Shown: positions 10,426-43,005 of the stretch, in pieces
How positions within the stretch are numbered: the first letter of the stretch is position 1
Layout: each line of letters begins with the position of its first letter
Assembly: GCA_039683095.1 (NCBI GenBank)
Contig: JBDKSB010000012.1
Location: 1,117,846-1,181,845, forward strand
Length of the DNA: 64,000 nt
Direction of reading: 5' to 3'
Source: Acidobacteriota bacterium
Lineage (GTDB): Bacteria > Acidobacteriota > Aminicenantia > Aminicenantales > Saccharicenantaceae
Program-made: the position numbers and the translations under genes
The notes under the pieces: generated by a model
Told to the model about the DNA's origin: nothing
Database searches by the model: none
The model's input: only the letters and a program-made list of their open reading frames with translations

Positions 10426-10555
10426 GTGTTCCTCCTTCGGACGGGGTTCCGTCCGTAACAATACGGGGCCGGGACCGAAAAATCAAGGCCCCGCCCCCCG
10501 GGTTAAAGGCTGATCATGCCCGAGCAAAAATACGGAACTGCGCCGGCGGGGTTTC

Positions 10556-10669
10556 AAAATGGGGGACACAATACCTATTTCCCCATTTTTCCAGGGTAAA
10601 AAATAGGTACCATGTCCCGATTCATTTACAGGGGAGAAAATAGGAAATAGGTATTGTGTCCCCCATTTT
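10556..10669. repeat. REP-like palindromic element, copy 1
   Basis: Two 27-base arms, 10556-10582 and 10643-10669, are perfect inverted repeats built on GGGGGACACAATACC. Between them lies a second shorter motif (AATAGGTACCATGTCCC). A related element lies at 17318-17520. The right arm reaches the stop codon of the sialate esterase. The form is that of REP elements mobilised by RAYT (Y1) transposases; no such transposase gene is in the window. Confidence 0.7.
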
Positions 10670-17317: not shown

Positions 17318-17520
17318 AAAAACGGGGGACATGATGCCTGTTTCCTGTTTTCCTCTTTTATCGAAACCCGTACCATGATGCCTTTTCCCCATGATATGGC
17401 GCTCCTGCCATACCCTCTTCCGTTTTGTGTGGGTCGGCCGCTTAACCGGGAAAGTGCATCATGTCCCGCCTTTTATACAGGCGGGAAAATAGGAAATAGG
17501 TATCGTGTCCCCCATTTTGT
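17318..17520. repeat. REP-like palindromic element, copy 2
   Basis: The left arm (17318-17355) and right arm (17480-17520) are imperfect inverted repeats sharing CGGGGGACA...CCT.TTTCCT and its complement with copy 1. Inside, a second pair (near 17371-17390 and 17449-17468) again uses TGATGC and GCATCATGTCCCG. The element fills the 328-base gap between the divergent M55 peptidase and homoserine dehydrogenase genes; apart from a weak promoter nothing else is visible there. Confidence 0.6.
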
Positions 17521-37224: not shown

Positions 37225-37261
37225 AGGCGGCTCCCGCTACCCGCGGGGCCGCCTTTTTTTA
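37225..37261 (+). terminator. hsp20 terminator
   Basis: AGGCGGC pairs with GCCGCCT around a G/C loop, followed by eight T. Confidence 0.85.
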
Positions 37262-37284
37262 TTCTTCTCCCATTTCCGAGAAAC

Positions 37285-37465
37285 CTCCGAGGCGGCGAGG
37301 GATGTACGGCAGGGAGCGAAGCCCTCGAAGCGACCATCAGAAGCATGGCGGAGCGACTCGGAGCCATGCTTCTGACCTCCGCTCCCCAGAGTCCGCTCCG
37401 GGCCGGCCGGGGAGCAAGAGGCATATCCCGAGCAAAGCCGGAGAGAGGCGCTTCCCGGAACCTGG
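37285..37465. repeat. Structured palindromic element, copy at 37 kb
   Basis: Contains a 12-bp hairpin at 37338-37374 (CAGAAGCATGGC / GCCATGCTTCTG, loop with GAGCGACTC). The ends, GAGGCGGCGAGGGA near 37290 and CCCGAGCAAAGCCGGAGAGAGG-type sequence near 37428-37447, match those of the element at 42641-42800. It fills the gap between hsp20 and comF. No reading frame is supported in 37262-37478. Confidence 0.65.
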
Positions 37466-37478
37466 AGAAGAACCTTTC

Positions 37479-41546: not shown

Positions 41547-42083
41547 TTACTCCTTGCTGGCTTTCTTGGGCTTGGCCGGGGCCGCCTTCTTTTCGGCTTT
41601 CGGCTTGGCCGCTTCCTTCTTGGCCGGCTTGGCCTTGGCCGCCGCCTTGGCGGGCTTCTCGGCCGCCGCGGCCGGCTTCTGCGCGTCCGCCTTCGGCTTG
41701 GGCGCCGGGGCGGGCTTTTCGACCGGGATGATCTTCTCTTCGGCCAGGTCCGCGGCCGTGACGACGGACCGGTCCGCCGCGATCCGGGTGATGCGGACCT
41801 TGGTCAGCTGCTGCCGGTGGCCGCGGGTCCGGCGGAACTGTTTCCTTCTCTTCTTCTTGAAGACCAGGACCTTCTCGTCCTTGAAATTCTCGAGGACCAG
41901 GCCAAGGACCATGGCGTTGTCGAGAACCGGGGTCCCGACCTGGACCGTGCCGCCGTCCTCGATGAGGAGGACGCGCTCGAATTGGGCCTTCCGCCCCGGC
42001 TCGAGATCGAGCTTCTCGACGGCCAGGACGTCCCCTTCCTTGACGCGGTATTGCTTGCCGCCCGTCAGGATCACAGCGTGCAT
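41547..42083 (-). CDS. rplU: 50S ribosomal protein L21 with long basic tail
   Basis: 178 aa. Residues ~1-103 are the normal L21: HAVILTGGKQYRVKEGD at the N-terminus and FKKKRRKQFRRTRGHRQQLT near 75-95. Beyond that is a ~75-residue tail of Ala, Lys and Pro (for example KPAKAAAKAKPAKKEAAKPK region) with no counterpart in standard L21. The tail resembles histone-H1-like or ribosomal tails that bind RNA. First gene of the eight-gene run ending with comF. Confidence 0.96.
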   Translation of the reverse strand: MHAVILTGGKQYRVKEGDVLAVEKLDLEPGRKAQFERVLLIEDGGTVQVGTPVLDNAMVLGLVLENFKDEKVLVFKKKRRKQFRRTRGHRQQLTKVRITRIAADRSVVTAADLAEEKIIPVEKPAPAPKPKADAQKPAAAAEKPAKAAAKAKPAKKEAAKPKAEKKAAPAKPKKASKE

Positions 42084-42124
42084 GTCGACCTACCCTTCGG
42101 AGGAGATACGAAAAAGGAACAGCA

Positions 42125-42153
42125 AATTTAACATAGGACCGGTTTTAAGTCAA
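42125..42153 (-). promoter_or_regulatory. rplU operon promoter
   Basis: Minus strand: TTGACT (42148-42153), 17-base spacer, TAAATT (42125-42130). Leader of about 35 bases to the rplU ATG. Divergent from the tRNA-Val promoter. Confidence 0.6.
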
Positions 42154-42164
42154 ATTAGCGCGCC

Positions 42165-42193
42165 TTGACAGGCCCGGGCCGATTCTCTACCCT
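42165..42193 (+). promoter_or_regulatory. tRNA-Val promoter
   Basis: TTGACA (42165-42170), 17-base spacer, TACCCT (42188-42193), 12 bases before the tRNA 5' end. Confidence 0.65.
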
Positions 42194-42205
42194 TGGGGCG
42201 TCCGC

Positions 42206-42277
42206 GGGCGGTTAGCTCAGCGGCAGAGCGTCGGTTTTACAAGCCGAGGGTCGCAGGTTCGATCCCTGCACCGCCCA
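42206..42277 (+). tRNA. tRNA-Val (TAC)
   Basis: 72-base cloverleaf: acceptor GGGCGGT/ACCGCCC, D-arm GCTC..GAGC, anticodon stem TCGGT/GCCGA with loop TTTACAA (anticodon TAC), T-arm with TTCGATC, discriminator A. CCA is not encoded. Confidence 0.97.
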
Positions 42278-42288
42278 TCCCGTAGCGA

Positions 42289-42594
42289 GCGAAGCGAGCG
42301 GAGGCGGCAGAAGTCCAGCTGAGCGACTCGAAGCTGGACTTCTGCGAAATATCGGGATCAAGGTGTTTCTTGGCTTTTAGCGACGCGAGCGGAGGCGGCA
42401 GAAACCCGCCTGAGCGTCACGAAGGCGGGTTCCTGCGAAATATCTTGATAAAGTCGTCTGCCTGATAGCCTGTTGCCATCTGGTTTTGCGAAGCGAGCGG
42501 AGGCGGCAGAAGTCCAGCTGAGCGACTCGAAGCTGGACTTCTGCGAAATATCGGGATCAAGGTGTTTCTTGGCTTTTAGCGACGCGAGCGGAGG
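42289..42594. repeat. Cluster of variable-stem hairpins with a 107-bp exact direct repeat
   Basis: 42289-42395 and 42488-42594 are identical, 199 bases apart. Each holds a hairpin (42308-42344, 42507-42543) with stem CAGAAGTCCAGCT. Between them is a related hairpin (42399-42435) with stem CAGAAACCCGCCT. All share the flank GCGAGCGGAGGCGG on the left, a GAGCG..(A/T)C..CGA loop, and TGCGAAATATC on the right. The region 42278-42813 contains no supported gene. Confidence 0.75.
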
Positions 42595-42635
42595 TCAGAG
42601 ACCTTTCTCCTCCGTCGCGGCCGCTGACCTCCTGT
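42595..42635. repeat. Further hairpin next to the cluster
   Basis: AGGTCAG (42592-42598) pairs with CTGACCT (42624-42630), continuing from the same GCGAGCGG flank as the variable-stem hairpins but with a different, longer loop. Confidence 0.4.
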
Positions 42636-42640
42636 CCCGT

Positions 42641-42800
42641 TTCCGGCAGTCCCTCTCGAGGCGGTGAGGGAATTCACCTCGCAGATCCCCGTGCTGGAGA
42701 GGGGACCCGCGAAGCGGGGGGAACCGTGTAACCGGTTCCCGGGGCCGGGGAGCCAGAGGTGATTCCCGAGCATAGCCGGAGAGAGGGACTTTCCGGATTC
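42641..42800. repeat. Structured palindromic element, copy at 42 kb
   Basis: Nested pairing: CCGG.AGTCCCTCTC near 42643 with GAGAGGGACT..CCGG near 42781-42798; GAATTCACCTC with GAGGTGATTC inside; then smaller arms, CCCGCGAAGCGGG and GAACCGTGTAACCGGTTC. The arrangement suggests a branched RNA-like fold. Both ends match the element at 37285-37465. Confidence 0.6.
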
Positions 42801-42813
42801 AACAGAGGAAAAG

Positions 42814-42886
42814 CGCCCCCGACGGGATTCGAACCCGTGTTGCTGCCTTGAAAGGGCGGTGTCCTGGGCCTCTAGACGACAGGGGC
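42814..42886 (-). tRNA. tRNA-Glu (TTC)
   Basis: 73-base cloverleaf: acceptor GCCCCTG/CGGGGGC, D-arm GTCT/GGAC, anticodon loop CTTTCAA (anticodon TTC), T-arm ACGGG/CCCGT, discriminator G. CCA not encoded. The anticodon stem CCGCC/GGCAG has one C-A mismatch at 28-42. Co-transcribed behind tRNA-Lys. Confidence 0.93.
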
Positions 42887-42893
42887 ACATACG

Positions 42894-42965
42894 TGAGCCG
42901 TGCTGGATTCGAACCAGCGACACCCGGCTTAAAAGGCCGGTGCTCTACCGCTGAGCTAACGGCCC
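42894..42965 (-). tRNA. tRNA-Lys (TTT)
   Basis: 72-base cloverleaf: acceptor GGGCCGT/ACGGCTC (one G-T pair), D-arm GCTC..GAGC, anticodon stem CCGGC/GCCGG with loop CTTTTAA (anticodon TTT), T-arm with TTCGAAT, discriminator A. CCA not encoded. Confidence 0.97.
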
Positions 42966-42977
42966 GAAAAAAGCACT

Positions 42978-43005
42978 ATTATAGTGACGGGGGAGAAAGA
43001 GTCAA
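42978..43005 (-). promoter_or_regulatory. Promoter of the tRNA-Lys/tRNA-Glu operon
   Basis: Minus strand: TTGACT (43000-43005), 16-base spacer, perfect TATAAT (42978-42983), 12 bases before tRNA-Lys. Confidence 0.75.

Follow-up and report, generated by a model that had tools for sequence, protein, structure and literature searches.

ERIC is a mobile intergenic repeat with a stable fold, compensatory changes are a feature of bcr1, and elements of the ISL3 family leave 8-bp target duplications. Mobile folded repeats are already known, in the portions of the literature available to us, in the form of REP elements, MITEs and bcr1. REP elements and BIMEs are described there as small intergenic palindromes present in many copies, in inverted pairs and arrays (PMC8266576), and bcr1 of the Bacillus cereus group and QMITE2 of Coxiella as mobile repeats of intergenic regions that fold stably (PMC10969869, PMC2267715). 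In the accessible text of a further study, hairpins close after stop codons, for which poly-U is unneeded, were proposed to terminate transcription in clusters (PMC8355165).

The repeat family described here, found in a 64,000-nucleotide stretch of an Acidobacteriota genome (the window) and in related genomes, resembles each of these systems in part. Like REP elements and BIMEs it consists of many small intergenic palindromes that form inverted pairs and arrays, but its hairpins have no adjacent RAYT and combine a long constant loop, leader and tail with a variable stem. It is unrelated in sequence to bcr1, QMITE2 and ERIC and, unlike them, occurs in arrays and downstream of stable RNA genes. 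Some units resemble hairpin-cluster terminators in lying near stop codons without a need for poly-U, but those terminators are a general device rather than a repeat family, and the units of the window are spaced by about 50-70 nt, more than the 15-nt cluster limit given in the available text (PMC8355165). Dispersed copies are like ISL3-family MITEs, being short and gene-free, with ends matching an ISL3 transposon from the same order, 8-bp duplications and AT-rich targets; they differ in carrying a covarying hairpin cargo that also exists outside them, and in that no transposase was found in most carrier genomes. The literature on Aminicenantes and repeats, in the portions available, held no description of this MITE or hairpin family. 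What is new is the repeat family itself, its covariation and its placement downstream of stop codons and stable RNA genes in a lineage not yet cultured. Our preferred reading, which we hold at a probability of about 0.55, is that it represents a mobile, fold-maintained, REP-like hairpin, spread in part by ISL3-type MITEs and probably active, as RNA, at the 3' ends of transcripts.

The original prediction, made from the window alone, named at least four hairpins, and all four were found, with stem-loops at 42307-42345, 42398-42436, 42506-42544 and 37337-37375. The module consists of a leader (GAGCGGAG or GAGCGACC), a 12-bp stem, a GGAG...GGA-type loop and the tail GAAATATC. Two details of the prediction needed correction: the supposedly common flank GCGAGCGGAGG is present in three of the window hairpins while the copy at 37338 has GAAGCGACCAT, and the stems are not all fully complementary, since that at 42398 carries one A-C mismatch. 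RNA folding of the hairpins at 42307, 42398 and 37337 gave -26.4, -22.7 and -23.7 kcal/mol, values equalled by none of 200 shuffles in each case; the copy at 42506 is identical in sequence to that at 42307. These two copies lie in a direct repeat, on the forward strand, whose predicted exactness was borne out (repeat family D1; 42289-42395 and 42488-42594, identical at 107 of 107 positions).

Three forward-strand units occupy 42288-42360 (77.1 bits against a covariance model of the module, R1; E 4.5e-15), 42379-42451, with a different stem sequence (67.2 bits), and 42487-42559 (74.7 bits). The array starts directly 3' of a forward-strand tRNA-Val gene (anticodon TAC, 42206-42277; ARAGORN and Rfam) and is followed by convergent tRNA-Glu (42813-42886) and tRNA-Lys (42893-42965) genes on the reverse strand. 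The fourth unit (37320-37386, forward strand, 50.5 bits) is borne by a MITE and flanked by an HSP20 gene and an opposite-strand gene with double zinc ribbon and phosphoribosyltransferase domains. Between array and tRNA-Glu lies a decayed element (42628-42808, approximate limits set by eye) with related terminal repeats, another core and no hairpin unit; its segment 42743-42810 pairs with 37405-37472 at 78% (repeat D15), and it is similar to a further locus, L026. In four genomes of the genus (loci L217, L218, L219 and L221, and partly in L213) a small membrane-like protein gene lies between tRNA-Val and tRNA-Glu, and the counterpart of its place in the window holds the remaining hairpin array and the decayed element.

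The hairpin module is genus-specific. A gapped hairpin pattern matched nine places in the genome of the window and none in a reversed control; across 60 genomes, repeated copies of near-identical length were present in 11 of 13 genomes of the genus, and matches outside the genus were scattered and chance-like. Model R1, which spans 71 positions with 12 pairs, was searched against the genome and its relatives as the original prediction had proposed, and the window copies are not the only ones: the genome has 25 matches, and all 13 genomes of the genus have some, together at least 362, a lower bound because the counts for two of them (G002 and G012) are themselves at least 53 each. Some matches are antisense shadows, as is one of the five in the window. 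Elsewhere in the order, only two of 81 genomes had matches (two in G090 and one, with E 0.0044, in G016). Every named record with the hairpin motif (36 stretches) is a MAG entitled either Candidatus Aminicenantes or Acidobacteria bacterium.

There is strong support for a fold maintained through paired changes. Many loci had been fetched by the paired pattern and others by plain DNA similarity, and two antisense readings were removed from a first list of 98 hairpins. Because the first count of covariation (alignment A2) used rows prefiltered for pairing, it was repeated on units chosen by leader and tail alone, with the arms unconstrained. This gave 99 distinct bodies, in 96 of which at least 10 of the 12 positions are paired, and removal of one chance match (L171) left an alignment of 98 rows (A4). 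In A4, 95.5% of cells are paired, and changes on both sides that keep the pairing occur at 11 of 12 stem pairs in 223 cells, with a covariation score of 0.498; none of 500 shuffles reached any of these four values. Controls in which the partners were slid by one to three columns gave 23-40 cells and scores of 0.058-0.088. Further copies thus do show compensatory change. In some copies the foot of the stem covaries as well (CAGAA/TTCTG, CAGGA/TCCTG, TAGAA/TTCTA, CAGCA/TGCTG and GTAAAA/TTTTAC). At the tRNA-Val locus alone, 16 rows from 11 genomes covary at six of 12 pairs in 25 cells, although these rows had passed a pairing filter and two of five measures were not clearly above shuffles (reached by 58 and 278 of 500). 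The excess of G-U over A-C cells is weak: 29 against 12 (p 0.012) with an offset chosen while counting G-U as pairs, and 24 against 12 (p 0.065) under a stricter anchor covering 92 of the 98 units (six skipped), where significance was lost.

Dispersed hairpin copies sit in palindromic elements of 200-330 bp with ends GGTTCTTCTCC. The terminal pattern GGTTCTTCTCCNNNTTCCGGGA, with up to two mismatches, occurs 19 times in the genome of the window against none in the control, 96 times in G002, and 36 times in a genome of another family (G034). Among 53 extracted elements with paired terminal inverted repeats (58-447 bp), identity between the 8-bp flanks was 0.618 (shuffles averaged 0.359 and never exceeded 0.434), and 15 had flanks matching at seven or eight of eight positions (control mean 2.3, maximum 7). 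AT-rich targets soften this test, but among the 31 elements without near-homopolymer flanks identity was still 0.536 against 0.332, with five matching at seven or eight positions (control mean 0.36). The MITE form is therefore shown to be mobile, inserting in AT-rich sites with 8-bp duplications. The MITE of the window (37260-37474, 215 bp, with a single internal hairpin and ends TATTCTTCTCC.../...GGAGAAGAACC; terminal repeat pair L019, repeat D15) has flanks matching at four of eight bases, and the duplication holds for the set.

A transposon end also matches. A locus with an ISL3 transposase match (PF01610; L180) ends in GGTTCTTCTCCCATTTAG, the outer 16 bp being common to the MITEs, and another (L186) is a complete ISL3 element of 1350 bp, bounded on either side by related ends, whose gene is interrupted; both come from other families of the order. 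Given the terminal inverted repeats, the 8-bp duplications and the matching ISL3 transposon end, the hairpin-bearing palindromic elements are MITEs, and we take them to belong to the ISL3 family, the Pfam model name used in the analysis being PF01610. A search for ISL3 transposase found none in the genome of the window or in 11 other genomes of the genus, and partial matches in G006 only. Among searched loci with paired terminal repeats, 18 of 52 carry a hairpin unit, 13 of these 18 having two in opposite orientation, while none of 22 such loci in G034 does; terminal repeats and hairpin are therefore separate modules. For one entire MITE (263 nt), RNA folding gave -172.4 kcal/mol (z -11.35). 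The tetranucleotide 5' of the palindrome is GACC in most MITE units and GGAG in free units. Elements of G034, from another family of the order, such as L155, L157 and L177, have the common terminal repeats around a different long palindromic core. At position 1501 of L008 stands a hairpin composed of one MITE hairpin's left arm and its partner's right arm, as though a deletion had removed the stretch separating their two loops.

Outside MITEs, units stand singly or in head-to-tail arrays of up to four, directly following genes and always in their sense. The tRNA-Val locus was recovered from 12 genomes (it was not found in G010); 11 of these have one to three units directly 3' of the tRNA gene, and in the twelfth, G008, tRNA-Val has no hairpins, which are therefore dispensable there. 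Units also follow the SRP RNA gene in five genomes (G002, with four units, G006, G009, G010 and G012), the SRP RNA being confirmed by Rfam in three loci (L222, L223 and L227) and recognised by sequence likeness in the remaining two. At least six protein genes are also followed by a unit, and at the six sites found it is in sense, with its leader at or just past the stop codon. The gene ridA is followed by a unit in G009 and has a normal end in ten other readable species; an eleventh end (L332) was unreadable and lies outside the comparison. The tRNA-Val cluster (42288-42559) lacks the ends of an ISL3-type MITE: no terminal inverted repeat was matched within 420 bases on either side of its units at up to five mismatches, and the list of such repeats for the genome has no entry there. 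The two settings are linked, as two loci (L239 and L350) have the free-unit leader within a MITE. The interval from ridA to the following gene holds, in L324, L325 and L329, another hairpin; its arms change in step from species to species (GCAGCGATTT/AAATCGCTGC against GCGGTGATTT/AAATCACCGC), and it looks like a second covarying family.

These observations can be joined as follows. An ISL3-family transposase acting in trans would have spread the MITEs, which carry inverted pairs of modules as cargo, and free modules would be transcribed together with the preceding gene. There the module would act as a 3'-end hairpin, in transcript punctuation, in termination without a U-tract or in protection from exonucleases; such an action would keep the stem in shape and the loop and tail in sequence. 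In a bolder form of this proposal, a genus-specific transposable hairpin settles in sense directly behind genes for stable RNAs and proteins, in some cases provides the stop codon, and punctuates transcripts through a conserved loop and tail bound by a putative factor, the stem being free to vary if paired; we regard this fuller version as rather unlikely and offer it tentatively. The original prediction took compensatory change to imply selection on the fold, and the paired changes do keep the fold, but a neutral cause is conceivable. Replication template switching, which copies a mutated arm onto the other, could keep palindromes perfect without selection on the fold, the module then being MITE debris, and in the available text it has been proposed both to create and to maintain hairpins (PMC8794818). 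One stem pair fits such correction well, with 31 UA, 30 GC and 29 AU cells against one GU and three unpaired, and the loops of 12-14 nt would make suitable substrates. However, loop, leader and tail are constant, and no inverted loop was found in a search of the 98 units, although the accessible text gives inversion as an expected by-product (PMC8794818). The sense orientation of free units after genes, their persistence at tRNA-Val and, weakly, the G-U excess also speak against neutral copying, which we consider possible though doubtful. Of the two identities first suggested, a structured RNA may be right, with that orientation and the weak G-U excess in its favour, the latter depending on how the arms are anchored. 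Should the fold-maintained mobile hairpin be the correct reading, it suggests a small transposable element that carries transcript-end signals. The family is in any case a dense natural set of hairpins (98 units analysed, beside at least 362 model matches across 13 related genomes) in which selection on the fold and template-switch correction could be told apart, and it adds a MITE family to the record for uncultured Aminicenantes.

The other suggested identity, a folded-DNA recombination site, fared poorly. Integron attC sites have the core motifs GTTRRRY and RYYYAAC. The tandem arrays, and a paired stem that varies between constant ends, recall them, but none of the 98 units has both motifs and two have either, cassettes are absent between units, and dispersed copies lie in terminal-repeat elements with 8-bp duplications; we consider this identity exceedingly improbable. 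A described Rfam RNA family was rejected as well, the scan returning only tRNAs at gathering scores and no credible match with the E limit raised to 5. No T-tract follows the stem in any of the 98 units and no terminator-like site was found in 42000-43000, which excludes a standard intrinsic terminator. Spread by a RAYT (Y1) transposase, as in REP elements with a GGAG or GTAG tag before the hairpin and inverted pairs as BIMEs, would account for the inverted pairs here and for the GGAG/GTAG motifs in free-unit leaders, and Y1 transposase genes are present in 10 of the 13 genomes of the genus. The hairpin, however, is near none of 25 Y1 loci, and its MITE-borne copies have terminal inverted repeats and 8-bp duplications, so that this origin is very unlikely. 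Five of the 25 loci, in related genomes, are instead adjoined by another palindromic repeat type, with GACACAATACC, which is therefore likely to be a RAYT/REP system. The window itself holds this second repeat type, as GGGGGACACAATACC...GGTATTGTGTCCCCC, at 10555-10669 and 17460-17519.
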